Below, piece by piece: positions 5,494 to 54,388 of a DNA stretch of 64,000 nucleotides. Position 1 is the first letter of the stretch. Each line of letters opens with the position of its first letter. The stretch covers positions 2,399,501 to 2,463,500 of the forward strand of contig NZ_CP026121.1 in NCBI RefSeq assembly GCF_003330845.1, in the 5' to 3' direction. Source of the stretch: Streptomyces sp. Go-475. Its GTDB lineage: Bacteria; Actinomycetota; Actinomycetes; Streptomycetales; Streptomycetaceae. Below the pieces are notes generated by a model that did no database searches, was not told where the DNA came from, and was given only the letters and a program-made list of their open reading frames with translations. The position numbers were made by a program, and so were the translations under genes.

Positions 5494-6435
5494 TCACCCG
5501 CGTTTCAGCCCCAGCACCTCCGCCGCCGCGAACGTCTCCCCGGCCGGCCGGTCCGCGTAGTACGGCCCGAGGACCGCGTCCAGCTCGTCGTACGTGAAGG
5601 TGTCCTGCTTGCTGTCGAACTTGGCGGCCACCCGGGGCCGTTCGACGACGGCCACCATGCCGCCGTGCACCACCAGGAGCTGCCCGGTCACCCGGGCCGC
5701 GGCGGGCGAGGCCAGGTAGCCGACCAGGGGGGCGACGTGCTCGGGGGCGAGCGGGTCGAGGCCGCCTCCGGAGGGCTGCTCGACGCCCGCGAAGACGTCC
5801 TCGGTCATCCGGGTGCGGGCGCGGGGGCAGATGGCGTTGGCCGTCACGCCGTACTTGCCGAGGGCGAGGGCGGTGGAGGTGGTGAGGCCGACGATGCCGC
5901 CCTTGGCGGCGGCGTAGTTGGGCTGTCCGGCCGAACCGGCGAGGAACGCCTCCGAGGAGGTGTTCACGATCCGCCCGAACACCGGCGCCCCGGCCCGCTT
6001 GGACCGCTCCCGCCAGTGGGCGGCGGCGAACCGGGTGGTGTTGAAGTGCCCCTTGAGATGCACGCGGAGCACGGCGTCCCACTCCTCCTCGGCCATCGAG
6101 AACACCATGCGGTCGCGCAGGATGCCCGCGTTGTTGACGAGGATGTCGAGTTGGCCGAACTCGGCGACGGCCAGCTCGACGAGCTCGCGCGCCTGCTGGA
6201 AGTCGGAGACGTCGCCGGTGTGCGCGAGGGCGGCACCGCCGGCGGCCCGGATCTCGGCGGCGACCCGATCGGCCGGACCGGCGGAGGCCTCGCCCGTGCC
6301 GTCCCGGCCGGGCCGCCCCTGGTCGTTGACGACCACGGCGGCGCCGAGCCGGGCGAGTTCCAGCGCCTCGGCCCGGCCGATCCCGCGGCCCGCGCCCGTG
6401 ACGATCGCGGCCAGTCCCTGGAGCGGAAGCGGCAT
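5494..6435 (-). CDS. SDR family oxidoreductase (3-hydroxyacyl dehydrogenase type)
   Basis: The 313-residue short-chain dehydrogenase carries the Rossmann TGAGRGIG motif at the N terminus, NNAG in the middle and the catalytic YAAAK (YxxxK). An extension of about 45 residues after the core resembles the long SDRs used in steroid and acyl-CoA oxidation, so 3-hydroxyacyl-CoA or hydroxysteroid oxidation with NAD(P) is likely. The ATG at 6435 is preceded by GAGG with a 9-base spacer; upstream codons in this frame belong to the neighbouring gene. It is the last gene of an operon (MaoC, alcohol dehydrogenase, SDR), 11 bases after the dehydrogenase. Together the three could carry out hydration and oxidation of an acyl-CoA side chain. 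Confidence 0.9.
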   Translation of the reverse strand: MPLPLQGLAAIVTGAGRGIGRAEALELARLGAAVVVNDQGRPGRDGTGEASAGPADRVAAEIRAAGGAALAHTGDVSDFQQARELVELAVAEFGQLDILVNNAGILRDRMVFSMAEEEWDAVLRVHLKGHFNTTRFAAAHWRERSKRAGAPVFGRIVNTSSEAFLAGSAGQPNYAAAKGGIVGLTTSTALALGKYGVTANAICPRARTRMTEDVFAGVEQPSGGGLDPLAPEHVAPLVGYLASPAAARVTGQLLVVHGGMVAVVERPRVAAKFDSKQDTFTYDELDAVLGPYYADRPAGETFAAAEVLGLKRG

Positions 6436-6446
6436 GGCGTGGGTCC

Positions 6447-7523
6447 TCACATCTCGATGCAGGTGCGCAGGGCGGTCCCGGTCCGCATCTGGTCCAGGGC
6501 CTCGTTGACGTCGGTGAACGGGACCCGGTGGGTGATCAGACCAGCCAGGTCGACGCGGCCCGCGCGCCACAGGGCGATGGTGCGTTCGTAGGAGCGCAGG
6601 ACGTCACCGCCGCCGTACATGGACGGCAGGATCCGCTTCTCGTCGAAGAACAGCTCGAACATGTTGAGCTGGAGGAAGTCGTCCATGGCTCCGGCGCCGA
6701 CCACGACGAGGGTGCCGCCGCGCCGGGTGGTGTCGTAGGCGGTGCGTGCCGTGGCCGACTTGCCGACGACCTCGAAGACGTGGTCGAAGCCCTCGCCGCC
6801 GGTGATCCGCTGTGTGGCGTCGGGCAGTTCGTCGGGCGAGACGGCCCGGGTGGCGCCGAAGCGGACGGCCGCCTCGCGCCGGGAGGCGACCGGGTCCACG
6901 GCGACGATCTCGGCGGCCCCCCGCAGCCGGGCGCCCTGGATCACGGAGACGCCGACGCCCCCGCAGCCGATGACCGCCACCGACGAACCGGCTTCCAGGT
7001 CCGCCGTGTTGAGCGCGGCGCCCAGCCCGGTCGTCACGCCGCAGCCGATGAGGGCGGCGATGTCGAAGGGCACGTCGTCGGGTATGGGCACCGCGCACCC
7101 GGCGTCGACGACGACCTCCTCGGCGAAGGTGCCGGTGCCGGCGAAACCGAAGAGGTCCCCGCCGGGGCGCCTGAAGTTGGGGGTGCCCGCGTTCATGAAC
7201 CCGGCGAGGCACAGCTCGGTCTGTCCGCGCCCGCAGGCGGGACAGGCACCGCAGGCGGGCAGCCAGCAGACGATGACCCGGTCGCCGGCCTTCAGGTGGT
7301 CCACGCCCTCGCCGACCTCGAGGATCTCCCCCGCCCCCTCGTGGCCGGGCACGAACGGCGCGGGCTGCGGCAGCACCCCGCTCATCGCGGACAGGTCGGA
7401 GTGGCACAGCCCCGTGGCGCGCACCCGGATGCGCACCCTGCCGGGGCCGAAGCCCACCGCCTCGACGTCGTCGAGGACCTCCAGCATGTCCTGGCCGATC
7501 TCGTGCAGTACGGCTGCGCGCAT
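6447..7523 (-). CDS. Zinc-dependent alcohol dehydrogenase
   Basis: The 358-residue medium-chain dehydrogenase has catalytic zinc ligands in TGLCHSDL and GHEGAG, a structural zinc site with closely spaced cysteines (CGACPACGRG), and the NAD-binding loop GCGGVG. It is expected to oxidise an alcohol to an aldehyde or ketone with NAD. Its type is close to the AdhB/AdhD class of Mycobacterium, some of which belong to the KstR regulon. The ATG at 7523 gives the usual MRAAVLHE start. It follows the MaoC gene by 32 bases and precedes the SDR gene by 11, so it sits in one transcript with both. The substrate is unknown. Confidence 0.92.
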   Translation of the reverse strand: MRAAVLHEIGQDMLEVLDDVEAVGFGPGRVRIRVRATGLCHSDLSAMSGVLPQPAPFVPGHEGAGEILEVGEGVDHLKAGDRVIVCWLPACGACPACGRGQTELCLAGFMNAGTPNFRRPGGDLFGFAGTGTFAEEVVVDAGCAVPIPDDVPFDIAALIGCGVTTGLGAALNTADLEAGSSVAVIGCGGVGVSVIQGARLRGAAEIVAVDPVASRREAAVRFGATRAVSPDELPDATQRITGGEGFDHVFEVVGKSATARTAYDTTRRGGTLVVVGAGAMDDFLQLNMFELFFDEKRILPSMYGGGDVLRSYERTIALWRAGRVDLAGLITHRVPFTDVNEALDQMRTGTALRTCIEM

Positions 7524-7555: not shown

Positions 7556-8413
7556 TCAGGTGTGTTCGACGACGGTGTCGGCGAGGACGGGCGCGTCCTG
7601 CCGCTCCACGGCGCTCACGGCCACCCGGACCTCGCCGTCGAGCCGCCACATGCGCACGCGCAGCGTCTCCCCCGGGTACACGACCCCGGCGAACCGCGTG
7701 GCGTACGAGCGCACCCGGGTCACGTCCCCGCCGAGCAGCGTGTCGACGACCGCCTTGAGGGTCATGCCGTAGGTGCACAGGCCGTGCAGGATGGGCCGCT
7801 CGAAGCCGGCGACCTTGGCGAACTCCGGGTCGGCGTGCAGCGGGTTCCGGTCGCCGGAGAGGCGGTAGAGCAGGGCCTGGTCCTCGCGGACGGGCCGCTC
7901 GACGGTCCGGTCCGGGTCTCCGGCGGGCGGGTCGAGCCGGCCGGACGGCCCCCGGTCGCCGCCCCAGCCGCCCTCTCCCCGTACGTAGATCCGCGCGTCG
8001 CTGGTCCACAGCGGCCCGTCGGCGTCGGCCACGTCGGTGCGCATGACGAGGACGGCCGCCTTGCCCTTGTCGTACACGGCGGCGATGCGCCCGGTGGCCC
8101 TCGCGCGGCCCTCGGCCGGGAGGGGGCGGTGGATCCGCAGGCTCTGCCCGCCGTGCAGGACCCGGGCGAGGTCGACGTCGATGCCGGGCATGGCCAGCCC
8201 GCCGGTCACCCCGGGTTTTCCGGCGCCCGCGACGGTGGCGAAGCTCGGCAGGACGTGCAGCCGGGACTCCAGGGTGTAGCGCAGCTCGTCGGGGTCGGTG
8301 GCGGGTGTGCCGGCGCCGATGCCGAGGTGGTAGAGCTGCACGTCCTTGTGGTCCCAGGAGATCTCGCCGGTCCGGGGTTCGGCGGCGAGCGCCTTGGCTG
8401 CGTCGATGGGCAT
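7556..8413 (-). CDS. MaoC-like enoyl-CoA hydratase 2
   Basis: The 285-residue protein has two hotdog domains. The N-terminal half is degenerate. The C-terminal half carries the hydratase 2 signature (LSGDRNPLHADPEFA) with its catalytic Asp and His, followed by ILHGLCTYG. Such proteins hydrate 2-trans-enoyl-CoA to (R)-3-hydroxyacyl-CoA. Length and arrangement match mycobacterial Hsd4B (Rv3538), a sterol side-chain enzyme under KstR. It is the first gene of the operon with the alcohol dehydrogenase and SDR, and the 18-bp palindrome at 8493-8510 lies about 80 bases upstream. ATG 8413 was chosen because homologues begin there; the upstream extension is compositionally odd. Confidence 0.9.
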   Translation of the reverse strand: MPIDAAKALAAEPRTGEISWDHKDVQLYHLGIGAGTPATDPDELRYTLESRLHVLPSFATVAGAGKPGVTGGLAMPGIDVDLARVLHGGQSLRIHRPLPAEGRARATGRIAAVYDKGKAAVLVMRTDVADADGPLWTSDARIYVRGEGGWGGDRGPSGRLDPPAGDPDRTVERPVREDQALLYRLSGDRNPLHADPEFAKVAGFERPILHGLCTYGMTLKAVVDTLLGGDVTRVRSYATRFAGVVYPGETLRVRMWRLDGEVRVAVSAVERQDAPVLADTVVEHT

Positions 8414-8492
8414 GGGGCTCCTGATCGCCGTGGGGGAAGACCTCGGTACGGCCGTCCGCACCGTCGGCCGCACCGAGGCCGTCTGGGACCGA

Positions 8493-8510
8493 ACTGGAAC
8501 GCGTTCCAGT
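8493..8510. promoter_or_regulatory. KstR-type operator palindrome
   Basis: ACTGGAACGCGTTCCAGT is a perfect 18-bp palindrome whose core exactly fits the mycobacterial KstR consensus TNNAACNNGTTNNA. It lies upstream of the MaoC/dehydrogenase/SDR operon, and a KstR-like TetR gene is present at 31879. Control by that protein is inference. Confidence 0.75.
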
Positions 8511-8617
8511 CCTGCGCCTCTGTATAGCCCAGCCCCCCGTACTTGTGAAGGCTCCTGACGCCGTGTCAGATGACTGCCCACACCGGATCATGACCGTGTC
8601 ACCGACGCCGGAAAGCA

Positions 8618-8656
8618 AGCGGCGGCCGCATCGAGAAAGTCGATACGGCCGCCGCT
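8618..8656 (-). terminator. Terminator hairpin after SnoaL-like gene
   Basis: The arms AGCGGCGGCCG and CGGCCGCCGCT, extended by TCGA/TCGA pairing around a GAAAG loop, form a very stable hairpin about 50 bases after the stop codon of the minus-strand gene ending at 8705. Confidence 0.8.
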
Positions 8657-10811: not shown

Positions 10812-10884
10812 AAAGGGCAGTCTCGGTGTGCTCCTGACCGAGGACGCTGATCAGTGTGAGCATGCTGTGTCCACTACAGTTCAG

Positions 10885-10966
10885 CGTGGGCCGTGACTGG
10901 CGCTGAGGTGGAGCACCACCGGGGAGCGGTCTGACGAGACGTCGTTGCCGTGCGCCTGGGCGAGTG
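10885..10966 (+). ncRNA. ZTP riboswitch (pfl motif)
   Basis: The RNA shows the conserved pfl/ZTP features in order: CCGUGACUGGCGC, a GGUGG-AGCA-CCACC hairpin (10907-10920), CGGGGAGCGG, a variable hairpin, then GCCGUGCGCCUGGGCG. P1 pairs GGCGC (10899-10903) with GCGCC (10952-10956). ZTP/ZMP signals a shortage of 10-formyl-tetrahydrofolate. The folD start codon lies about 25 bases downstream, so expression of the one-carbon enzyme should rise when ZTP accumulates. The short gap suggests control of ribosome access or a nearby terminator. Confidence 0.88.
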
Positions 10967-10990
10967 GTCAGCAACGCCTGGAGGGCAACG

Positions 10991-18011: not shown

Positions 18012-18027
18012 GCAACGGAATAGTTGC
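18012..18027. promoter_or_regulatory. Inverted repeat upstream of MFS gene
   Basis: GCAAC-N6-GTTGC lies about 70 bases upstream of the MFS start codon in a locally A/T-richer stretch, typical of an operator for a TetR- or MarR-type repressor. No regulator gene is adjacent, so the binder is unknown. Confidence 0.4.
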
Positions 18028-18095
18028 CTGCGCATACGAGGTTCGCACTCCACGTAACCGTGCACGCCCGACCCCCGGCCTGGAGGCCTCTCTCA

Positions 18096-20655
<2,560 letters not shown>

Positions 20656-29459: not shown

Positions 29460-30205
29460 TGGGCGTCCGCCCCGGTGTCGGCCAGGCGCGGCAGGTGCGG
29501 CTTGGTCGCGTACGCCACGAAGCTCTTGCCGATCAGCGGGTTCAGCGCCTGCTCGGCGACCCGGGTGGCCAGCGGTTTCTTCATGATGTCCCAGACGAGC
29601 AGCTTGTGGTACGCGCGCACCGGCAGCGCCTTGTCGTTGTCGACGCCGAACGCGCACTTCAGCCACCAGTACGGGGAGTGCAGCGCGTGCGCGTGGTGGG
29701 TGCCGTAGGGCTCCAGGCCTGCCTCCCGGATCTTCTCCAGCAGCTCGTCGGCCCGGTAGATGCGGATGTGGCCGCCCTCGACCTCGTGGTAGGCGTCGGA
29801 CAGGGCCCAGCAGACCTTCTCGGGGCCGTAGCGCGGCACGGTGACGGCGATGCGGCCGCCCGGCTTCAGCACGCGGACCATCTCGGCGAGGACGCCCTTG
29901 TCGTCGGGGATGTGCTCCATCACCTCGGAGATGATGACGACGTCGAAGGACTCGTCGGGGAAGGGCAGCGCGAGGGCGTCGCCCTCCATGGCCGTGGCCG
30001 TGGCGCCCTCGGGGGCCTCCCCGGCCTCCTTCATCGCCGCGAACCACTTCGCGACCTCGCGGATCTCGTCGGCGTTCTGGTCCAGCGCCACGACCTGCGC
30101 GCCGCGCCGGTAGCACTCGAACGCGTGCCGGCCGGCACCGCAGCCGAGGTCCAGGACACGGTCGCCCGGGGCGAGCGGGAACCGGGAGAAGTCGACGGTC
30201 AGCAC
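29456..30205 (-). CDS. Class I SAM-dependent methyltransferase
   Basis: The 249-residue protein has a textbook Methyltransf_11 core: VLDLGCGAGRHAFE (motif I), VALDQNADEI, MEGDALALPFPD, FDVVIISEVMEHIPD and VRVLKPGGRIAVTVP. The C-terminal half (YRADELLEKIREAGL and later residues) may form the acceptor site. The GTG start overlaps the upstream glycosyltransferase by 7 bases, and the stop overlaps the toroid gene by 4, so all three are translationally coupled. The product is perhaps a methylated glycan or glycolipid precursor. The substrate is not known. Confidence 0.9.
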   Translation of the reverse strand: MLTVDFSRFPLAPGDRVLDLGCGAGRHAFECYRRGAQVVALDQNADEIREVAKWFAAMKEAGEAPEGATATAMEGDALALPFPDESFDVVIISEVMEHIPDDKGVLAEMVRVLKPGGRIAVTVPRYGPEKVCWALSDAYHEVEGGHIRIYRADELLEKIREAGLEPYGTHHAHALHSPYWWLKCAFGVDNDKALPVRAYHKLLVWDIMKKPLATRVAEQALNPLIGKSFVAYATKPHLPRLADTGADAQ

Positions 30206-31668
30206 GTGGCCCTGCTTTCGGAGTTGACGCCTGTTACATCTGCGGGAGCCGGGGAGACGGCACCCGCCGAGGACACGGAAACCTGAGGGGTGGCAGCCGG
30301 TGAGCCGGCACCCGCCGTGGCCGCCGCGACGCCGGAGGCCCGGCCCGGGGTCCGGGTCGGGTGGCCCCCGGCCCGTTCGATGGCCTCGCGGTACCGCGCC
30401 ACCGTCCCCTCCGCCGCCCTGGCCCACGTGAAGTGCCGCAGCACCCGCTGCCGCCCGGCCGCCCCGAGCCGCGCCCGCAGCTCCGGGTCGCCCAGCAGGC
30501 GGCCCAGCCCCGCCGCGAGTGCCTCGGAGTCCCCCGGCGGCACCGCGAGGCACGTCTCGCCGTCCGGCCCGGCGACCTCGGGGATCGCACCCCCGGTCGT
30601 GGCGAGCAGCGGCGTCCCCGTCGCCATGGCCTCCGCGGCCGGCAGCGAGAAGCCCTCGTAGAGCGACGGCACGCAGGCGACCTGCGCCGAGCGCACCAGG
30701 TCGACGAGTTCGGCGTCGGAGATGCCCTTGACGAACTCCACGGCGCCTTCCAGCCCGTAGCGCTCCATCGCCTGGGCGACGGGCCCCTCGGCGGGACGCT
30801 TGCCGACCACGACGAGATGCGCCCCGGGGTGCTCCGTACGGACCTTGGCCAGCGCCTCGACCAGGTACACCAGGCCCTTGAGCGGCACGTCCGCGCTGGA
30901 CGTCGTCACGATCCGGCCCGGCACGACCGGCACGGACGGATCCGGCGAGAACAGGTCGGTGTCGGCGCCGATGTGGACGACGTGGATCCGGTCCGGCCGG
31001 ACGCCGAGGTGGTCGACGATCTCCTGGCGGGACGTGCCGGAGACGGTGAGCACGGACGGCAGCCGCCGCGCCACCCGCTTCTGCATGCGCGTGAAGGCGT
31101 ACCAGCGCCGCACCGAGTAGCGCCGCTGCCAGCCGTCCGCCGCGTCCAGCTCCAACTGCCGGTCCACGGTGATGGGGTGGTGGACGGTCGTCACCAGGGG
31201 CGCGCCGACGTCGCCCAGCAGGCCGTAGCCGAGGGTCTGGTTGTCGTGCACGACGTCGAACTCGCCGCGGCGGGCGCGCAGGTGGCGGCGGGCGCGCAGC
31301 GAGAACGTCAGCGGCTCGGGGAAGCCGCCGGTCCACATCGTCGCGACTTCCAGCGCGTCGATCCAGTCGCGGTACTCGTCGCGCCCGGGTGTGCGGAAGG
31401 GGTCCGGCTGGCGGTACAGGTCGAGGCTGGGCAGCTCGGTCAGGCGCAGTCCGTCGTAACCCTCGTCGAGGACGGGGTAGGGCTGGGCGCCGATGACCTC
31501 GACGCGGTGGCCGAGGCGGGCCAGCTCGCGGGAGAGGTGCCGGACGTAGACGCCCTGGCCGCCGCAGAACGGGTTCCCTTTATAGGTGAGGAGCGCGATG
31601 TGGAGCGGTCGCAAGCCGTCGGCAGCCGGGTCCTCCGAGGCCCCGGCCTCCCTGGCCTCAGCGGTCAC
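30199..31668 (-). CDS. Glycosyltransferase family 4
   Basis: The 489-residue GT-B enzyme begins with a conserved donor-domain start (IALLTYKGNPFCGGQGVYVR), has HDNQTLGYG in the N-terminal half and a C-terminal GT4 domain with ADVPLKGL, KGISDAELVDL and the retaining-enzyme EX7E motif (SLYEGFSLPAAEAM). The last 60 residues are a low-complexity Ala/Thr/Ser tail. It probably transfers a sugar from a nucleotide donor to a lipid or wall acceptor. It is first in the operon with a methyltransferase and a toroid protein. The start codon lies about 55 bases from a KstR-type box shared with the divergent TetR gene, so the operon may belong to that regulon. Confidence 0.9.
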   Translation of the reverse strand: MTAEAREAGASEDPAADGLRPLHIALLTYKGNPFCGGQGVYVRHLSRELARLGHRVEVIGAQPYPVLDEGYDGLRLTELPSLDLYRQPDPFRTPGRDEYRDWIDALEVATMWTGGFPEPLTFSLRARRHLRARRGEFDVVHDNQTLGYGLLGDVGAPLVTTVHHPITVDRQLELDAADGWQRRYSVRRWYAFTRMQKRVARRLPSVLTVSGTSRQEIVDHLGVRPDRIHVVHIGADTDLFSPDPSVPVVPGRIVTTSSADVPLKGLVYLVEALAKVRTEHPGAHLVVVGKRPAEGPVAQAMERYGLEGAVEFVKGISDAELVDLVRSAQVACVPSLYEGFSLPAAEAMATGTPLLATTGGAIPEVAGPDGETCLAVPPGDSEALAAGLGRLLGDPELRARLGAAGRQRVLRHFTWARAAEGTVARYREAIERAGGHPTRTPGRASGVAAATAGAGSPAATPQVSVSSAGAVSPAPADVTGVNSESRATC

Positions 31669-31720
31669 TCTGGGCCCCCTTCTCCCTGCACTGTCCCGCG
31701 AGATTACGCCGGGACGCTAA

Positions 31721-31738
31721 TCTAGAACAAGTTTCAGA
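31721..31738. promoter_or_regulatory. KstR-type operator between TetR gene and GT operon
   Basis: TCTAGAACAAGTTTCAGA follows TCT-NN-AAC-NN-GTT-NN-AGA, an imperfect palindrome whose core exactly fits TNNAACNNGTTNNA. It lies in the divergent promoter region, 143 bases before the TetR gene and 55 bases before the glycosyltransferase gene, consistent with autoregulation. Confidence 0.75.
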
Positions 31739-31746
31739 CTTGATCG

Positions 31747-31761
31747 TTCGGAGGCTCCGAA
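31747..31761. promoter_or_regulatory. 15-bp perfect palindrome
   Basis: TTCGGAGGCTCCGAA (7-bp arms around one G) lies 9 bases from the KstR-type box in the same divergent promoter region. It may be a second operator or an RNA hairpin in the TetR leader. Confidence 0.45.
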
Positions 31762-31878
31762 TCTACCGGCAGGTAGGGGCGCTGTGACCAGTGGATCAGG
31801 TGATTCACGCCACGGCCGGCGCCGTGCCATGCTGTGTGATCACTCGTCCTCACGGACGGTCACGGAACGGGACGACCC

Positions 31879-32541
31879 ATGCCCGCGGAAGCCAAGGTGA
31901 ACGCCAAGGTGAACAAGGTGGCCAAGGTGGAAGCCAGAGCCGCAGCCCCCGCCTCCGCTCCCCTCACGGAGCGGCAGGAGGCCCGGCGTCGCCGCATCCT
32001 GCACGCGAGTGCGCAGCTGGCCAGCCGGGGCGGTTTCGACGCCGTGCAGATGCGCGAGGTCGCGGAGTCCTCGCAGGTGGCGCTCGGCACGCTGTACCGC
32101 TACTTCCCCTCCAAGATCCACCTGCTGGTCGCCACGATGCAGGACCAACTGGAGCACATGCACGGCACGCTGCGGAAGAAGCCCCCGCAGGGCGAGACGG
32201 CGGCCGAGCGGGTCGCGGAGACGCTGATGCGGGCCTTCCGCGCCCTGCAGCGGGAACCGCACCTGGCCGACGCGATGGTCCGCGCCCTCACCTTCGCCGA
32301 CCGCAGCGTGAGCCCGGAGGTCGACCAGGTCTCCCGGCAGACCACGGCGATCATCCTGGACGCGATGGGGCAGGAGAACCCGACGCCGCAGCAGCTCTCT
32401 GCGGTCCGGGTCATCGAGCACACCTGGCACTCGGCCCTGATCACCTGGCTCTCGGGCCGGGCCTCGATCGCCCAGGTGAAGATCGACATCGAGACGGTGT
32501 GCCGGCTGATCGACCTGACGGCCCCGGACACACGTGAATGA
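31879..32541 (+). CDS. TetR family regulator, KstR-like
   Basis: The 220-residue repressor has a 30-residue Lys/Ala-rich N-terminal extension and then a TetR DNA-binding domain (RRRRILHASAQLASRGGFDA, helix-turn-helix at about 55-78 with LGTLYRYFPSKIHLL). From memory it aligns well with mycobacterial KstR (GGYEAVQMRAVAD, GTLYRYFPSKVHLL), and similarity continues into the ligand domain (ALTFADRSVSPEVDQV, RVIEHTWHSALITWL, RASIAQV). KstR represses cholesterol catabolism and responds to a sterol acyl-CoA. A matching operator lies upstream and another before the MaoC operon. The natural ligand in this organism is unknown. Its stop codon directly abuts an antisense TPP riboswitch. Confidence 0.9.
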   Translation: MPAEAKVNAKVNKVAKVEARAAAPASAPLTERQEARRRRILHASAQLASRGGFDAVQMREVAESSQVALGTLYRYFPSKIHLLVATMQDQLEHMHGTLRKKPPQGETAAERVAETLMRAFRALQREPHLADAMVRALTFADRSVSPEVDQVSRQTTAIILDAMGQENPTPQQLSAVRVIEHTWHSALITWLSGRASIAQVKIDIETVCRLIDLTAPDTRE

Positions 32542-32730
32542 CCTACGAGACGGGTTCCCTTCGCCGGCATGGTCCGGATCAGGTGTTGGGGGTCGCCTTC
32601 GGGTCGCCGGCCTTGCGGCCCTGCTTCCTTCCGGCCTCTCAGCCCTACCGTCGCAGTCGGCACCGGCGGAAGCCGAGGCTTCCGGCCAACGTCGGCTACT
32701 CCGGTCGGACTCCCTCACTCGTCCCGTAGG
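32542..32730 (-). ncRNA. TPP riboswitch, minus strand, no thiamine gene downstream
   Basis: Read on the minus strand, the RNA has the THI-element cores GGGCTGAGAGG (32645-32635) and CACCTGATCCGGACCATGCC followed by GGCGAAGGGA (ending at 32556). P1 is formed by CCTACGGGACG (32730-32720) and CGTCTCGTAGG (32552-32542), with one G-U pair. The P3 arm is long. The aptamer ends one base past the stop codon of the convergent KstR-like gene, and no minus-strand gene follows until 31668. It looks like an orphan TPP aptamer whose read-through would be antisense to the regulator. Confidence 0.85.
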
Positions 32731-33389: not shown

Positions 33390-33623
33390 CTACTCCTCCG
33401 GCGGGAACACCGCCTCCCCGCTGTCCCCCAGCGTGATCACGATCGCCTCCACCGGGCAGCTCTCCGCCGCCTCCAGCACCCGCTCGTTCGCGTCCGTGTC
33501 CGGGGCGAGCGGATGGGACTGGCGGGCGGCGTCGAGGCGGAAGCCGTCCGGTGCGTGGTGGACGCACTGGGCGGAGCCGATGCACAGGGAGCGGTCGACC
33601 TCGACGTGCCAGCGGTCGCCCAT
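33390..33623 (-). CDS. 3Fe-4S ferredoxin
   Basis: The 77-residue ferredoxin has the P450-type pattern: VDRSLCIGSAQCVHHAPD at the N terminus and ESCPVEAI at the C terminus, with the central ligand cysteine of a 4Fe-4S cluster replaced, so a 3Fe-4S cluster is expected. Such proteins pass electrons to cytochrome P450s in actinomycetes. It starts 2 bases after the aldehyde dehydrogenase stop codon and is therefore in the same transcript. It is a candidate electron donor for the CYP125-like P450 at 45568, which lies behind related operators; that pairing is inference. Confidence 0.93.
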   Translation of the reverse strand: MGDRWHVEVDRSLCIGSAQCVHHAPDGFRLDAARQSHPLAPDTDANERVLEAAESCPVEAIVITLGDSGEAVFPPEE

Positions 33624-33625
33624 CT

Positions 33626-35077
33626 CTAGGCTTCCGCCGGCAGGTGGATCATCTTGTGCTCCAGGTACTCGCCGTACCCTTCGGGCCCGAACTCCCGGCC
33701 AAGGCCCGAGTTCTTGTAGCCGCCGAAGGGGCCGAGCATGTCCAGGCTGAAGGTGTTGACCGAGTAGGTGCCCGTGCGGACCTGCCGGGCGATGTCGATG
33801 CCGTGCTCGACGTCCGCCGTCCACACGCTGCCGCTCAGCCCGTAGTCGGAGTCGTTGGCGATCTTCACGGCGTCGGACTCGTCGTCGTAGGGCAGCAGGC
33901 AGATGACGGGGCCGAAGATCTCCTCGCGGGCGATGCGCATGGAGTTGTCGACGTCGCCGAAGAGGGTCGGCTCGACGTACCAGCCGCGGTCGAGGCCGGC
34001 CGGGCGGCCGCCGCCGGTGAGGATCTTGGCGCCCTCCTCCTGGCCGATGCGGATGTAGTCCAGGTTGCGCTGCTGCTGTCGCCGGGCCACCAGCGGGCCC
34101 ACCTGCGTCGCCCGGTCCAGCGGGTCGCCGACGGTCAGGGCGCCCGCCGCGGCGGCCAGGGCGTCGGCGAACTCGTCGTAGCGGGAGCGGGGCAGGAGGA
34201 TGCGGGTCTGGGCGACGCAGGCCTGGCCGTTGTTCATCCAGGCCGCGGGAGCGATGCCCGCCACGGCCGCCTCGACGTCCGCGTCGGGCAGGACGACGGC
34301 CGCGGACTTGCCGCCCAGTTCGAGCGTCACGCGCGTGAGGTTGCGGGCCGCGACCTCCATCACGCGCTTGCCGGCGGCGACGGACCCGGTGAAGGACACC
34401 TTGTCGAGGCCCGGGTGCCCGACCAGGTACTCGCTCACCTCCCGGTCGGCGGGCAGGATCGACAGCACGCCCTCGGGCAGCCCGGCCTCGCGGGTGATCT
34501 CGCCGAGCAGGTACGCGTCGAGCGGTGACTCGGGCGAGGGCTTGAGCACGGCCGTGCACCCGGTGAGCAGCGCCGGGGCGAGCTTGGCGGCGGCGACGAA
34601 CTGCGGGACGTTCCAGGGGACGACGGCCGCGACGACCCCGACCGGCTCGCGCCGCACGAGGATCCCGCCGAGCACGCCGTCGCGCCGCTCCTCGTAGGTG
34701 AAGTTCCGCGCGACCGTGATGGCCGCGTCCCAGACCATCACCGCGCCGAGCGCCTGGGCGAGGACGCTCCAGGAGTACGGCGAGCCGTTCTGGGCGGAGA
34801 TCACGCGGGCGATCTCGTCGTGCCGGGCGGCGATCCCGTCCTTGATCCGGCTCACGACCTCGATCCGTTCGTCGAGGCTCATGCGCGGCCAGGGCCCCTC
34901 GTCGAACGCCCGCCGCGCCGCCGCCACGGCCCGGTCCACGTCCGCCGTGGCGGCGTGCGGCACGCGTCCGATGACCTCTTCCGTGTGCGGCGAGATCACC
35001 TCGATGACGTCCTTGCCCCGGGGGTCGGTCAACTCCCCGCCGATGAACAGCTGTCCGTGTTCCACGAGCTCGGCCAT
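33626..35077 (-). CDS. NAD-dependent aldehyde dehydrogenase
   Basis: The 483-residue enzyme has all ALDH landmarks: VVPWNVPQ, SFTGSVAAGKR for NAD, the general base in LELGGKSA, the nucleophilic Cys in NNGQACVAQTR and EIFGPV near the end. It oxidises an aldehyde to a carboxylic acid. The type resembles mycobacterial AldA (Rv0768), listed among KstR targets. With the ferredoxin downstream, it could finish the oxidation begun by a P450 and an alcohol dehydrogenase on a terminal methyl group. ATG 35077 gives the usual MAELVEHGQLFI start. A GAACTG-N4-CAGTTC palindrome lies 32 bases upstream, shared with the divergent gene. Confidence 0.93.
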   Translation of the reverse strand: MAELVEHGQLFIGGELTDPRGKDVIEVISPHTEEVIGRVPHAATADVDRAVAAARRAFDEGPWPRMSLDERIEVVSRIKDGIAARHDEIARVISAQNGSPYSWSVLAQALGAVMVWDAAITVARNFTYEERRDGVLGGILVRREPVGVVAAVVPWNVPQFVAAAKLAPALLTGCTAVLKPSPESPLDAYLLGEITREAGLPEGVLSILPADREVSEYLVGHPGLDKVSFTGSVAAGKRVMEVAARNLTRVTLELGGKSAAVVLPDADVEAAVAGIAPAAWMNNGQACVAQTRILLPRSRYDEFADALAAAAGALTVGDPLDRATQVGPLVARRQQQRNLDYIRIGQEEGAKILTGGGRPAGLDRGWYVEPTLFGDVDNSMRIAREEIFGPVICLLPYDDESDAVKIANDSDYGLSGSVWTADVEHGIDIARQVRTGTYSVNTFSLDMLGPFGGYKNSGLGREFGPEGYGEYLEHKMIHLPAEA

Positions 35078-35108: not shown

Positions 35109-35124
35109 GAACTGATACCAGTTC
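35109..35124. promoter_or_regulatory. Palindromic operator between ALDH and MBL genes
   Basis: GAACTGATACCAGTTC has perfect 6-bp arms around ATAC and lies midway between the two divergent start codons (32 and 38 bases). It does not fit the KstR core (AAC-N2-GTT) but shares the GAAC/GTTC ends, so it may be a variant or belong to another TetR protein. Confidence 0.65.
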
Positions 35125-35161
35125 CCGTTATAGTGAGCAATGGCCGTGGAGCGGAGGGCAG

Positions 35162-39219: not shown

Positions 39220-39282
39220 GCGTCGAAGCTACCGCCGTCCACCCGGCGCCCTCGGCCGGTTTCCTACGTGCGGGTACAGTGA

Positions 39283-39393
39283 GCGGGTCGTCATCACACC
39301 CGTACGGGGGGAAGCCGGTGCAATTCCGGCGCTGACCCGCAACCGTGAAACCGCCGGCCCACGGCGGTGAGCCGGATCGCCCCGTACGGTTCG
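39283..39393 (+). ncRNA. Cobalamin riboswitch
   Basis: The RNA contains the B12 box AAGCCGGTGCAATTCCGGCG followed by CTGACCCGCAACCGTG (39312-39346), and GAGCCGGATCGCC downstream. A closing stem pairs CCGTACGGGG (39300-39309) with CCCCGTACGG (39380-39389). It precedes a five-gene operon with an ECF transporter. Cobalamin binding should switch the operon off, which predicts that the operon serves B12 or corrinoid acquisition. Confidence 0.93.
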
Positions 39394-46803: not shown

Positions 46804-46848
46804 GGACAGCTCCTGACGGTCCATCAGCAAAGGGGTCGTCGCGACCGT

Positions 46849-48164
<1,316 letters not shown>

Positions 48165-48177
48165 TCCGCCGACCGGC

Positions 48178-50538
48178 TCACGCGTCCTGGTGGGCCAGGT
48201 GCGGATGGACGTCGCTCGGAGCGCGCCCGTCCACGGTGACCGTCGTCGCGACGGGCGCGTAGCCGCTGGCGATCAGGGAGTAGTCCCCCGCGTCCAGGTC
48301 GGTGAACGCGTAGGCGCCGTCCGTGCCGGTGACGGCGGTGCCCACGACGTTCCCGGCGGCGTCGACGAGCGTGACCCGGGCATCGGCGACGGGCTCGCGG
48401 CCGGTCCCCGACCGTACGACGCCCTGCACCCGGGCGCCGGGGTGCAGCAGCACCTCCAGACCGGTCACCGGGGTGCCGGGCCACTGGACGGGGAGGGCCG
48501 CGGGCCGGTACCCGGCGGCGTTGACGGCGAGCGTGAGGTCGCCGTCGGGCAGGGGGCCGAAGCCGAACGCGCCGGAGGCGTCGGTGGTGCCGGTGGCCGC
48601 CACGTCTCCGCGCACGTCCGTCACCACGACCGTCGCGCCGGCCACCGGGAGCCGTTCCCCGGCCGTGGCCACCGTCCCGCTCAGGCGGCTGCCGCCGGCC
48701 AGGACCACGTCGTGGGGCAGGGGCTCCTCGCCGAGCGTGAGCGTGGACGCCTGGGGCTGGTGGCCGTCCGCCGCCGCGATCAGGACGTACGTACCCGCCG
48801 CGGGCGCGGCCAGCCGGTACCGTCCCGCGTCGTGCGCCACGGCCCGGCCGACCTGCCGCCCGCCCAGGGAGACCAGCGTGATCGTGGCCCCCGCCATGGC
48901 CCGCCCGGCGGCGTCACACACCCGGCCGGTGACGGCAGGGCCGTACGCGGCAACCGGCTCGACGGCAGCGGGCTCGGCGACGGACCCCACGGCAGGCTCA
49001 GGCGCAGCCTCCCGCTTCGGCTTGCGGAGCAGCACCACCCCGACCAGCGCGGCGAGCAGCGCCAGGGACGCGGCGACGATCAGGCAGAGCCGGAGGCCGT
49101 CGAGGAAGGACTCGGACAGGGCGCCCAGGGCGCGGCCGGTGTCCGGTCCCAGGTTCATCCCGGCGACGGCGCTCAGCCCGGCGGCGTCGACGGCCGCGGT
49201 GACCTGGTGGGCGGTCGCCGAGCCCACGCCCGCGTCGGCGAGGTGCCCGGGCAGGGCGTCCGTGGCCCTGGTCGTCAGCAGCGTGCCCAGGACGGCCGGG
49301 CCGAGCGCGCCGCCGACCTGCCGGAAGGCGTTGTTGCCCGCGGCGGCCATCCCGGCCAGGTGGTGCGGCACGGACGCGACGGCGGTGGCCGTCATGGGCG
49401 TGATGACCAGGCCCATGCCGAGGCCGAGCAGCATCAGCCGCCAGGCCAGCGGCCCGAACGCGGTGTGCGCGTCGAGCGCGGTCAGGGACAGCAGGGAGGC
49501 CGTACTGGCGAGCAGGCCGGTGGTGATCAGGGCACGGGCCGGGATGTGCCGCATCAGCGGCCCGACGACGACGCCGAGGAGCAGGCTCACCGCCGTCACC
49601 ATGAGCATGCGGTAGCCCGCGTCGAGGGTGTCGAGCCGCTGCACCATGCCGAAGTACAGGCTGAGGACGAAGAAGAAGCCGATCAGGCCCAGGAAGCTGA
49701 TCATCGCGATCAGCGTGGTCGCGCTGAACGCGGGGCTGCGGAACAGGGTCAGGTCCAGCATCGGGCTGGCGCTGCGGCGTTCGGCCACGACGAAGGCGAC
49801 GGCACCGGCGGCGGCGAGGGCGAGCGCCACGACGACCTCGGGCTCGGAGAAGGACCGCGCCCCGCCCTCGATCACGCCGTAGACGAGCGAGGTGATGGTC
49901 AGCGCGGCGGTGAGCTGTCCCGGCCAGTCCAGCCTGCGCGAGCCGGGGGCGCGCGAGTCGGCGACCAGCGGCACGGCGGCGGCCATCGTCAGCAGGGCCA
50001 CGGGTACGGCGGGCACGTAGATCCAGTGCCAGGCGGCGTGCCGGAGGATCACCCCGGCCATCAGGGGGCCCACGGCGAGCGCCAGCGACAGGGCGGCGGC
50101 CCACAGCCCGACGAACTTGCCGCGCTCGTGCGGGTCGGGCACGGCGTGGCTGATCAGCGCGAGGGTCGTGGGCAGCAGGGCCGCCGCGCCCGTCCCGGCC
50201 AGTGCCTGCCCGGCCCACAGCACCTGCACGGACTGCGCGCTCAGGGCGACGACGGCTCCGGCGGCCGAGAACAGCAGGCCGGCCTGGAAGACCTTCTTGC
50301 GCCCGTGCACGTCCCCGACGACACCGGCGGTGAGGATGAGCGCGGCCATCGGCAGGACGAACGCGTCCGAGACCCAGGACAGCTGGGAGGTCGAGGCGTG
50401 CAGGTCCCGCTGGATGGCCGGGAGACTGACGGAGACCGTGGTGACCGGCAGGTAGGCGACGAACACCCCGATGCAGGCCATCAGGAGTGTGGCCTTCGGA
50501 CTCCGCCGTGGTCCGTCGGCCGTCGTTGCCTCGTTCAC
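48178..50538 (-). CDS. MFS transporter with three C-terminal CarboxypepD_reg-like domains
   Basis: The 786-residue protein has about 14 helices in residues 15-520 with DHA2 traits (TTVSVSLPAIQRDL in helix 1, VVGDVHGRKKVF motif A). From about 536 to 785 follow three beta-sandwich repeats (GRVCDAAGRAMAGATITLV, GTVATAGERLPVAGATVVV, GVVRSGTGREPVADARVTL) like those at the end of the MFS gene at 18096. In the usual topology they would face the cytoplasm, which is odd for a domain normally found outside cells. GTG 50538 follows GGAGGG. The very long upstream open frame is a GC-bias artefact. Substrate unknown. Confidence 0.88.
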   Translation of the reverse strand: MNEATTADGPRRSPKATLLMACIGVFVAYLPVTTVSVSLPAIQRDLHASTSQLSWVSDAFVLPMAALILTAGVVGDVHGRKKVFQAGLLFSAAGAVVALSAQSVQVLWAGQALAGTGAAALLPTTLALISHAVPDPHERGKFVGLWAAALSLALAVGPLMAGVILRHAAWHWIYVPAVPVALLTMAAAVPLVADSRAPGSRRLDWPGQLTAALTITSLVYGVIEGGARSFSEPEVVVALALAAAGAVAFVVAERRSASPMLDLTLFRSPAFSATTLIAMISFLGLIGFFFVLSLYFGMVQRLDTLDAGYRMLMVTAVSLLLGVVVGPLMRHIPARALITTGLLASTASLLSLTALDAHTAFGPLAWRLMLLGLGMGLVITPMTATAVASVPHHLAGMAAAGNNAFRQVGGALGPAVLGTLLTTRATDALPGHLADAGVGSATAHQVTAAVDAAGLSAVAGMNLGPDTGRALGALSESFLDGLRLCLIVAASLALLAALVGVVLLRKPKREAAPEPAVGSVAEPAAVEPVAAYGPAVTGRVCDAAGRAMAGATITLVSLGGRQVGRAVAHDAGRYRLAAPAAGTYVLIAAADGHQPQASTLTLGEEPLPHDVVLAGGSRLSGTVATAGERLPVAGATVVVTDVRGDVAATGTTDASGAFGFGPLPDGDLTLAVNAAGYRPAALPVQWPGTPVTGLEVLLHPGARVQGVVRSGTGREPVADARVTLVDAAGNVVGTAVTGTDGAYAFTDLDAGDYSLIASGYAPVATTVTVDGRAPSDVHPHLAHQDA

Positions 50539-50684
50539 AGAACCCTCCGTGTCGGATCTTCCGGGTGGACAGCGAGGCTCACCTTTCAGCCAGGGCCGCT
50601 CAGGATCCAGCCACGGCCCGGGCGGGCCCGGATATCCGACATCACCAGGGCGCTTCCGACGGTTTTCCGACACCGCCGGTGCGG

Positions 50685-52339: not shown

Positions 52340-54388
52340 TCAGAGGGAACTCGTCGATCTGCTGCTCGAAGGCACCTCCGGCTGGTCCCGCTCGGCGGCG
52401 GCGGTGGCGGGCCTGGGCCCCGAGAGCACGTACGTCAGCGCGAAGCCCGCGCCGACCACCACCGCTCCCCCGGCCGCGTCGAGCACCCAGTGGTTGGCGG
52501 TCGCGACGATCGCCGAGGCCGTGCACAGCGGGTGCAGCAGCCCCAGCGCCTTCAGCCACCACCGGGACGCCAGCACGGCGATCACGACGCCGCACCACAG
52601 CGACCAGCCGAAGTGCAGGGACGGCATGGCCGCGTACTGGTTGGTGAGGGCCGTGAGCGTGCCGTAGTCGGGCTGGGAGAAGTCCTGGACGCCGTGGACG
52701 GTGTCGATGAAGCCGAGCGTCGGCATCAGGCGGGGCGGGGCCAGCGGGTAGAGCCAGAAACCGACCAGGGCCAGCAGGGTGGCGAAGCCGAGGGCGGAGC
52801 GGGCCCAGCGGTACTCGGCCGGGCGGCGCCAGTACAGGATCGCGAGGACCGTCAGCGGGACGGCGAAGTGGAACGACGTGTAGTAGTAGTCGAAGAAGTT
52901 CCGCAGCCAGTCGATCCGCACGACGGTGTGGTTGACCCAGTGCTCGATGTCGATGCGCAGGGCGCGCTCGAGGCCGTACACCTGCATGCCGTGCTCCTCG
53001 GCCTCGGCCCGCCCGGCCGAGTTGCTGCCGCCGGTGGCGGCGAGCCGGACCTGGGAGTAGGCGGCGTAGGTGACCCGGATGAGGAGGAGTTCCAGGAGGA
53101 GGTTGGGCCTGGTGAGGACCCGGCGCAGGAAGGGCACCAGCGGTACCCGCCGGAAGCGGGCCGGGGCGGCGGGGGCGTACTCGGTGGGGATCGGCTGCCG
53201 GTAGTACGGCGAGGTGCGGGACAGGAACGGCACGGCCGTGGCGGCGGCGAGGGCGGCCAGCAGGACGAGGTTGGTGCGCAGCGGGTCCAGCGACTGCATG
53301 TCGGGCAGCAGCATCCTGGTGGGCAGGGTCATGACCAGGACGACGGCGACCGGCCACACGTACCGGTCGGAGGCGCGTCGGCCGGCCCGGCCGACGACCG
53401 CGAGCAGTATCCACAGCAGCTGGTGCTGCCAGGCCGTGGGCGAGACGACGATCGCGGCGCAGCCGGTGATGGCGACGGCGAGCAGCAGCTGGCCGTCGCG
53501 GAAGCAGCGGACGGCGCGGCGCAGGGCGAGGACGGCGACGGCCGCGCCGATCGACAGGAAGAGGGCGACCTCCGGGGGGCCGCTCAGGCCGAGCCGGAGC
53601 AGGGCGCCGTGCAGGGACTGGTTGGCGAGGTCGTCGGCCGGGCCGCCGAGGCCGACGCCCGCCATGTGGTGGACCCAGTAGCGGTAGGAGTCGTCCGGCA
53701 TCGCCGCCCAGGCGAGCCCGGTGCAGGCGGCGAACGTGACGCCGGTGGAGAGCGCGGCGCGTCTGCGGCCGGTGAACCACAGCAGGGGCGTGAAGAGCAG
53801 CAGGGTGGGCTGGAGCGCGGCCGCGACGCCGATGAGCAGGCCGCTGGCGCGCTGGCCGTGGGCGACGAAGCAGCCCAGCAGGACGAGGAGGACCGGGATG
53901 ATGCTGGTCTGGCCCAGCCACAGGGTGTTGCGGACGGGCAGGGACAGCATCAGGAGGCTGATGGCGACCGGGGCGGCCAGCAGGGCCGTGCGGCGGCTGA
54001 CCGGCTGGGGCAGGGCGCGGGCGGCGATCAGGCCGAGGGCCACGACCAGCAGCAGTGTGCCGAAGGTCCAGCCCCAGCCGAGGGCCTGTTCGGCCGAACG
54101 GGTGAGGGGTTTGAGGACGAGGCCGCTGAACGGGGTGCCGGTGAAGCGGGTCGAGTCGTACAGGGAGCCGTTGACGTGCAGGACGCCGTTCGGCCCGAGC
54201 CAGGTCTCCAGGTCCGTCAGGCGCTCGCCGCGCGGAGTGGCGAGGACGACGGCCACCTGGCGTGCCGCGAGGAGTGCCGCGATCAGCCAGAGGCCGAGGC
54301 GGGCCACGCGCAGGCGTGCCCGGGCCCCGCCGACGGCCGTCGCTCCGAGTGCTTCCGCCGGTCGTCCGCCGTGATCCGCGTTCGTCAC
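52340..54388 (-). CDS. GT87-like membrane protein fused to PAP2 phosphatase domain
   Basis: The 682-residue protein carries two membrane modules. Residues 1-400 have about 10 helices and resemble GT87 polyprenol-linked mannosyltransferases (LTDLETWLGPNG with an acidic pair in the first loop). Residues about 440-665 are an inositolphosphotransferase/PAP2_3-like domain with the catalytic pattern in MPSLHFGWSLWC and TANHWVLDAAGG, two His and an Asp facing the membrane surface. The pair could link sugar transfer to recycling of a lipid phosphate. The C-terminal tail is Ser-rich. The GTG start lies right after GGGGAG, an unusually short spacing. Confidence 0.88.
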   Translation of the reverse strand: MTNADHGGRPAEALGATAVGGARARLRVARLGLWLIAALLAARQVAVVLATPRGERLTDLETWLGPNGVLHVNGSLYDSTRFTGTPFSGLVLKPLTRSAEQALGWGWTFGTLLLVVALGLIAARALPQPVSRRTALLAAPVAISLLMLSLPVRNTLWLGQTSIIPVLLVLLGCFVAHGQRASGLLIGVAAALQPTLLLFTPLLWFTGRRRAALSTGVTFAACTGLAWAAMPDDSYRYWVHHMAGVGLGGPADDLANQSLHGALLRLGLSGPPEVALFLSIGAAVAVLALRRAVRCFRDGQLLLAVAITGCAAIVVSPTAWQHQLLWILLAVVGRAGRRASDRYVWPVAVVLVMTLPTRMLLPDMQSLDPLRTNLVLLAALAAATAVPFLSRTSPYYRQPIPTEYAPAAPARFRRVPLVPFLRRVLTRPNLLLELLLIRVTYAAYSQVRLAATGGSNSAGRAEAEEHGMQVYGLERALRIDIEHWVNHTVVRIDWLRNFFDYYYTSFHFAVPLTVLAILYWRRPAEYRWARSALGFATLLALVGFWLYPLAPPRLMPTLGFIDTVHGVQDFSQPDYGTLTALTNQYAAMPSLHFGWSLWCGVVIAVLASRWWLKALGLLHPLCTASAIVATANHWVLDAAGGAVVVGAGFALTYVLSGPRPATAAAERDQPEVPSSSRSTSSL

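Follow-up and report, generated by a model that had tools for sequence, protein, structure and literature searches.

Why should a Streptomyces chromosome carry a relative of KstR, the TetR-type repressor of mycobacteria, and which genes does this relative control? A published survey scored a steroid pathway as missing from 55 of 57 Streptomyces genomes (PMC4810484); even so, the sterols of yeast are removed by several strains (PMC13170338). A conserved KstR-type regulon in these bacteria would point to the genes that could remove sterols, to the way in which these are switched and to a reason why the steroid nucleus may survive; it would also offer a KstR system reduced by nature and a starting point for the production of C24 steroid acids. 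In the titles, abstract openings and excerpts of the open-licence literature searched, no KstR regulon of Streptomyces is described. SCO2319 of S. coelicolor, a putative counterpart of the present regulator, was named as a possible KstR orthologue with 32% identity and no synteny, in a passage that describes no regulon (PMC1995591); the name was found nowhere else in the open-licence literature searched. Here, we consider a stretch of 64,000 nucleotides (referred to as the window), located at 2.40-2.46 Mb in the single-contig, 8.57-Mb genome of Streptomyces sp. Go-475 (G000), together with the remainder of this genome and those of its relatives.

The regulator gene (31879..32541, + strand) encodes a 220-residue TetR-family protein (P0001) with the Pfam domains TetR_N and TetR_C_20, which scores 203.8 bits against the NCBI KstR model NF033703, the next family reaching 50 bits. 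It is the only strong KstR-type protein of the genome, where the second-best match to the model is at 47 bits, and a P0001-type regulator was found in 140 of 150 sampled genomes of the genus. The top PDB matches are KstR chains together with 3bjb, a paralogue from Rhodococcus; they score 139-140 bits over residues 24-211, and the next match is at 38 bits. A gap-free comparison with M. tuberculosis KstR yields 58% identity in residues 29-88, 33% in the ligand domain and 42% overall, in agreement with a sequence-only reading of the window, which had likened the TetR protein at 31879 to KstR in the DNA-binding domain and much of the ligand domain. The 23 best PDB matches of an AlphaFold model (pLDDT 70, pTM 0.58) are KstR or 3bjb chains (rmsd 8-10); because the model is weak and the TM values are 0.52-0.70, it adds little to this identity.

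The same reading had called the regulator KstR-like, which stands, and had named a phylogeny outside the KstR clade as its refutation, a test from which the protein does not emerge cleanly. The score of P0001 lies below the curated NF033703 cut-off of 280 bits; four outgroup KstR-type proteins score 338-339 (two of them), 274 and 149 bits. An unrooted tree with 55 rows puts the Streptomyces proteins in a clade of their own (100/93), separate from the mycobacterial type (99/96) and the 3bjb type (100/100). Forcing the Streptomyces and mycobacterial types together costs 15 log units; at a p-AU of 0.07, this grouping is not rejected, nor is it shown, and a union of the mycobacterial and 3bjb types is rejected (p-AU 0.018). 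In the best tree, a weak branch (90/69) separates the Streptomyces and 3bjb types from the remaining rows, a split that could just as well reflect a single group of all the other proteins. The groups were named only after inspection of a first tree of 64 rows; the final tree dropped the doubtful rows L169 and L181 (beside M. tuberculosis KstR, long branch), L168, L174, L182 and four outgroup rows, and the query itself (L026) was left out of both trees. Because of the score below the curated cut-off and the separate clade in the tree, P0001 is referred to as KstR-like, and not yet as KstR. The sequence score of 3bjb to P0001 equals that of the KstR chains, and eight members of the 3bjb clade have only 7-9 of 14 box matches upstream. 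Outside the genus, a box with at least 11 of 14 matches is found within 400 bp upstream of 19 of 39 KstR-type genes, which argues for an origin of KstR older than the Mycobacterium-Rhodococcus ancestor at which it has been placed (PMC3388012).

In mycobacteria, KstR (Rv3574 / MSMEG_6042) is a TetR repressor with an autoregulatory box of the same palindrome type as that found here (PMC1995591). As had been noted from the window, exact matches to the consensus TNNAACNNGTTNNA precede the TetR gene (31723-31736) and the maoC operon (8495-8508), and well under one such match would arise by chance, i.e., two sites are observed vs 0.07 expected, at a G+C content (73.3%) that is as assumed earlier. 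As many exact sites occurred in none of 100 shuffles of the window, and with at most one mismatch eight sites are found vs 1.8 expected, including 46849-46862 and 46948-46961. The genome-wide scan that had been called for, in which the consensus of mycobacterial KstR was applied unchanged to the Streptomyces chromosome, gave 26 sites vs 5 with a reversed control. According to a codon test as we read it, clearly coding frames hold 14 of the 26 sites; four of the remaining 12 are the boxes of kstR, maoC, chsE4 and chsE5. The boxes of fadA5 and cyp125 have one mismatch each to the strict motif, and those of cyp125 and the aldehyde dehydrogenase gene (aldh) depart from the consensus.

Broader patterns were of limited use. 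The loose motif TNGAACNNGTTCNA with one mismatch was discarded as too noisy (187 sites vs 144 in the control). One-mismatch sites at 370-377 kb, which lie inside genes, were set aside as well. With two mismatches, CTAGAACNNGTTCTAG was found less often than its reversed counterpart in all of 11 genomes (15 vs 65 in G000) and was rejected, since its raw counts are no evidence. Among its rows for six genomes, the kstR, maoC and chsE5 boxes recur in all six and the fadA5 box in five; CTTGAACGGGTTCTTG also recurs in six genomes, being located in G000 inside an open frame of ambiguous coding status, and CTACAACCGGTTCGAG recurs in four of the six. The pattern STRGAACNNGTWHYW (18 sites vs 12 in G000; 18 vs 15, 19 vs 18 and 13 vs 15 in three relatives) was modelled on the known boxes and is therefore no independent test. 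Since raw site numbers for the broad patterns are not clearly above those of the controls, the argument is built on how the boxes are conserved and on what the genes encode rather than on site numbers. A sigma-70 scan of 31600-31900 gave no match. Near the chromosome end of one relative, two KstR-type boxes are found 100 bp apart (L238, G067:C1:202693-202808); in the 16-kb stretch around them, none of 13 proteins tried gave a match.

The kstR box, CTAGAACAAGTTTCAG (31722..31737, +), is an exact copy of the motif, located 141 bp from kstR and 53 bp from a divergent glycosyltransferase gene. All 30 loci of relatives chosen through protein similarity carry it, 26 of them letter for letter, and the palindrome TnnAACnnGTTnnA is present in the promoter region of kstR itself. 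The maoC box, CTGGAACGCGTTCCAG (8494..8509, −), is located 80 bp upstream of maoC and is perfectly palindromic. Among 30 loci selected through protein matches, 27 have a perfect core; the counted misses are L106 (no box), L110 (8/10) and L090 (at a contig end, improperly scored). The first gene of this operon (7556..8413, −) encodes a MaoC / MFE-2-type enoyl-CoA hydratase (Pfam MaoC_dehydratas and MFE-2_hydrat-2_N; hydratase-2 enzymes in the PDB). It is followed by a zinc alcohol dehydrogenase (6447..7523, −; Pfam), for which the nearest NCBI family is the NDMA-dependent type TIGR03989 at 287.7 bits, below the cut-off of 440, and by an SDR (5494..6435, −) of the 3-oxoacyl reductase / (3R)-hydroxyacyl-CoA dehydrogenase type (NF005862 (PRK07792), 485.6 bits, cut-off 414; also PDB). 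The starts of these three genes were chosen by us.

A second pair of boxes lies between two divergent genes. The box GTAGAACTCGTTACTA (46848..46863, −) is found 23 bp upstream of a CYP125-type P450 gene (45568..46824, −), the product of which belongs to the steroid C26/27 monooxygenase family; it matches PDB CYP125 with 538 bits over its whole length (CYP124, 310 bits) and keeps the heme-Cys motif. The box CTAGAACGCGTACTAG (46947..46962, +) is found 32 bp upstream of a gene for a FadA5-type steroid 3-ketoacyl-CoA thiolase (46995..48164, +), which scores 689 bits against NF005889, above the curated cut-off of 515, and 510 bits against PDB FadA5, the next other thiolase being at 258. Each of these two boxes recurs in every one of 30 relatives' loci that were selected through protein matches. 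In the best 80 of 537 loci with a relative of the thiolase, all titled Streptomyces, cyp125 is divergent from fadA5 and the fadA5 box is present without exception (80/80 each), and a cyp125 box is located within 300 bp of fadA5 in 71 of these 80 named species.

Further boxes lie outside the window. At 380,979, a box is located 42 bp before an acyl-CoA dehydrogenase gene (chsE4 homologue), the product of which matches chain A of PDB entry 4x28 with 465 bits, and at 4,329,713 another is located 46 bp before a second acyl-CoA dehydrogenase gene (chsE5 homologue), with 174 bits to chain D of the same entry; the next matches outside 4x28/6wy8 are at 154 and 96 bits, respectively. Of 30 loci selected through protein matches, 29 carry the chsE4 box; L222, at a contig end, is the counted miss. 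The chsE5 box is the same 16-mer before the same gene start in six of six genomes, which were selected by the site itself. Since 4x28 is the FadE26-FadE27 (ChsE4-ChsE5) heteromer, these boxes would flag both subunits of a single steroid enzyme, encoded 3.95 Mb apart. Within the window, a weaker box, CGGGAACTGGTATCAG (35112..35127, −), lies 34 bp upstream of an aldehyde dehydrogenase gene (33626..35077, −; Pfam; PDB 3b4w at 506 bits, next 373), directly after which a small single-cluster ferredoxin is encoded (33390..33623, −; Pfam Fer4_13/Fer4_15, CxxxxxC and CP motifs), a possible partner of the P450. The sequence GAACTGGTATCAGTT precedes aldh in the window and in five of five relatives' loci, three of which were picked because the site was listed by the STRGAACNNGTWHYW pattern and two were not, and the ferredoxin gene comes next in all five. 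The best solved relative of this aldehyde dehydrogenase, 3b4w, is presumably Rv0223c. The M. tuberculosis box before Rv0223c was EMSA-negative (PMC1995591).

The sequence-only reading had described a regulon scattered over 40 kb with four boxes, i.e., before the TetR gene and the maoC operon and, as near-matches, before the P450 and thiolase genes. All four boxes and the named elements are present and conserved in relatives. Both the extent and the count were too low, as further boxes are found at the aldh-ferredoxin operon and, at 0.38 and 4.33 Mb, at chsE4 and chsE5.

Across 101 genomes of the genus, kstR was found in 96, maoC in 84, fadA5 in 79 and chsE4 in 76, with all four in 74, i.e., about three quarters. 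The genes fadA5 and chsE4, located 2 Mb apart, occur together in 76 genomes; three hold fadA5 only, none chsE4 only and 22 neither (Fisher 2.5e-19, uncorrected for relatedness), where the chsE4-positive count includes a 57% paralogue (G085) and a partial match (G008). Eighteen of the 96 kstR-bearing genomes are without fadA5. Among 14 outgroup loci, each spanning 20 kb about a KstR-type gene, seven were searched (L156, L158, L159, L160, L161, L164 and L167), and all seven hold homologues of FadE34, ChsE4/ChsE5, CYP125 or FadA5; the FadE34 query, as well as those for HsaA and HsaC, was taken from L156, the match of which is partly a self-match.

The hsa ring-opening genes, searched as HsaA and HsaC, do not appear in the regulon. 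No protein of this genome matches HsaA at E 1e-20, and the best match to HsaC, a single extradiol dioxygenase, was not accepted as HsaC at 41% identity. The earlier remark that ring-degradation genes were not seen thus holds as far as tested. Among the 101 genomes, HsaA exceeds its cut-off in eight, all of which carry fadA5. One relative holds a separate sterol-type cluster (L230-L231, G070:C1:66001-98000) with HsaA-, HsaC-, FadA5-, FadE34-, MaoC- and ChsE4-like genes.

Some of the boxed genes have counterparts in the mycobacterial regulon. We take Rv3545c/Rv3546 to be cyp125/fadA5 and Rv3503c/Rv3504 to be ferredoxin/fadE26. At both of these pairs, mycobacterial KstR boxes are listed (PMC1995591). 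Unlike the mycobacterial regulon, the present one has no hsaA, its genes are spread over the chromosome, those found cover one round of beta-oxidation only, and its regulator is 42% identical to KstR and below the cut-off; the neighbor of kstR is a GT4-type glycosyltransferase gene here, whereas it is fadE34 in the mycobacterial system.

Judged from sequence, this KstR-type repressor probably governs a single oxidation round of the sterol side chain, from the C26 methyl group to the C24 acyl-CoA, without ring opening. We infer that a KstR-like dimer would bind 16-bp palindromes of the type CTAGAACnnGTTCTAG near the promoters, keep the dispersed side-chain set switched off and also repress its own gene. 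The products of cyp125, the alcohol and aldehyde dehydrogenase genes and the ferredoxin gene would convert the C26 methyl group to an acid, and chsE4/chsE5, maoC, sdr and fadA5 would provide one round of beta-oxidation from C26-acyl-CoA to C24-acyl-CoA, leaving the ring system intact in most Streptomyces. Sterol C26- or C24-acyl-CoA would free the repressor from DNA. The side-chain steps proceed in the order C26 acid, CoA ester, C24 CoA ester. As KstR effectors, 3-oxo-cholest-4-en-26-oic acid as well as the 26- and 24-oyl-CoAs have been published (PMC9782250). They stand at the entry and exit of the boxed steps, and the regulon could therefore be induced by the metabolites that bound it.

A similar Streptomyces enzyme has been studied: CYP125A13 of S. 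peucetius hydroxylates cholesterol in vitro (PMC9728343), and when S. lavendulae is grown with yeast, cyp125A13 and choD are up, most ergosterol is gone and modified sterols appear (PMC13170338). Among eight other strains, yeast sterols were changed least by S. lividans (PMC13170338). The excerpts of these two papers that deal with CYP125A13 do not describe its regulator and partner genes (PMC9728343, PMC13170338). A broader picture, which we offer tentatively as somewhat short of an even bet, is that in most Streptomyces a ring-sparing KstR-type regulon trims no more than the tip of the sterol side chain and is tuned by the two bounding acyl-CoAs; it would serve to exploit or disarm the membrane sterols of attacked fungi and release C24 acids, which the co-regulated GT4 enzyme might glycosylate, rather than mineralise the sterol, and lineages that lost these genes would have kept the regulator for another target.

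Could the natural substrate instead be a non-sterol compound, i.e., another lipid with a branched isoprenoid tail and no ring to open, handled by a KstR-derived regulator and its genes? The absence of HsaA here and its presence over the cut-off in only eight of 101 genomes would fit such a substrate, as would a regulator in its own clade with a ligand domain only 33% identical to that of KstR. We nevertheless consider it unlikely, because CYP125, FadA5 and ChsE4 are far nearer to steroid enzymes than to the next relatives (538 vs 310, 510 vs 258 and 465 vs 154 bits), a Streptomyces CYP125 hydroxylates cholesterol in vitro (PMC9728343) and cyp125A13 is induced on yeast (PMC13170338). The opposite alternative, complete sterol degradation by ring enzymes too diverged for the searches used, could draw on the extradiol dioxygenase with 41% identity to HsaC and on the eight HsaA-bearing genomes, all with fadA5; it is very unlikely in view of the lack of an HsaA match in this genome at E 1e-20 and of the 55 of 57 Streptomyces genomes scored without the pathway (PMC4810484). 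That the boxes are chance palindromes is hardly credible at all: GAAC/GTTC motifs do occur in coding sequence, 14 of the 26 genome sites look coding, and the one-mismatch pattern is barely above its control (187 vs 144) and two others not clearly so, but the boxes are conserved in relatives and lie close to genes of matching function, 23-80 bp upstream of them, or 141 bp in the case of kstR.

A further alternative concerns the gene on the other side of the kstR box, which encodes a GT4-type glycosyltransferase (30199..31668, −; Pfam; PDB) with 7qsg as its best solved relative (446 bits). Fourteen further kstR loci of Streptomyces all contain this gene. In 12 of the 101 genomes, kstR is present and fadA5, maoC and chsE4 are all absent; all nine of these that were inspected (L142-L149, L155) have the GT4 gene beside kstR, with a box that is the same 16-mer in eight and altered in L143. 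Where kstR and its box are kept without the sterol-type genes, the regulator should have another target, and the GT4 gene, starting 53 bp from the box, is the obvious candidate. It might be argued that this gene is the conserved target of the regulator in Streptomyces and that the sterol genes are an accessory set, given that kstR, box and GT4 gene stay together where these genes are missing and that a GT4 gene also lies near kstR in loci of other families (L159, L167). The boxes at five sterol-type promoters are conserved too, which makes this reading distinctly improbable compared with control of the side-chain genes by the KstR-like repressor.

Outside Streptomyces, the GT4 gene is divergent from or near kstR in L159 and L167, which belong to two other families. 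In L143 (G031), a relative without the sterol-type genes, a ferredoxin 63% identical to that of the window is encoded close to kstR (8404-8625). At the 3' end of kstR, on the opposite strand (32537-32657, −), the window holds a TPP-riboswitch-like element at 26.3 bits (gathering threshold 54.3); no gene read from it on the − strand was seen, and a similar sequence is visible in the aligned loci of three relatives.

Several other features of the window are listed here as separate observations. A ZMP-ZTP riboswitch (10883-10968, +; 56.8 bits) is found directly before a folD-type gene at 10964. A marginal cobalamin riboswitch (39268-39372, +; 32.9 bits, gathering threshold 31.5) overlaps the start of an open reading frame with weak matches to prenyltransferase/squalene-cyclase toroids. 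A single open reading frame (52340-54388, −) combines GT87 glycosyltransferase and PAP2 phosphatase domains. An MFS transporter (48178-50580, −; start approximate) carries CarboxypepD_reg / SdrD_B-type repeats towards its C-terminus, and a shorter, similar MFS transporter is encoded at 18024-19838.
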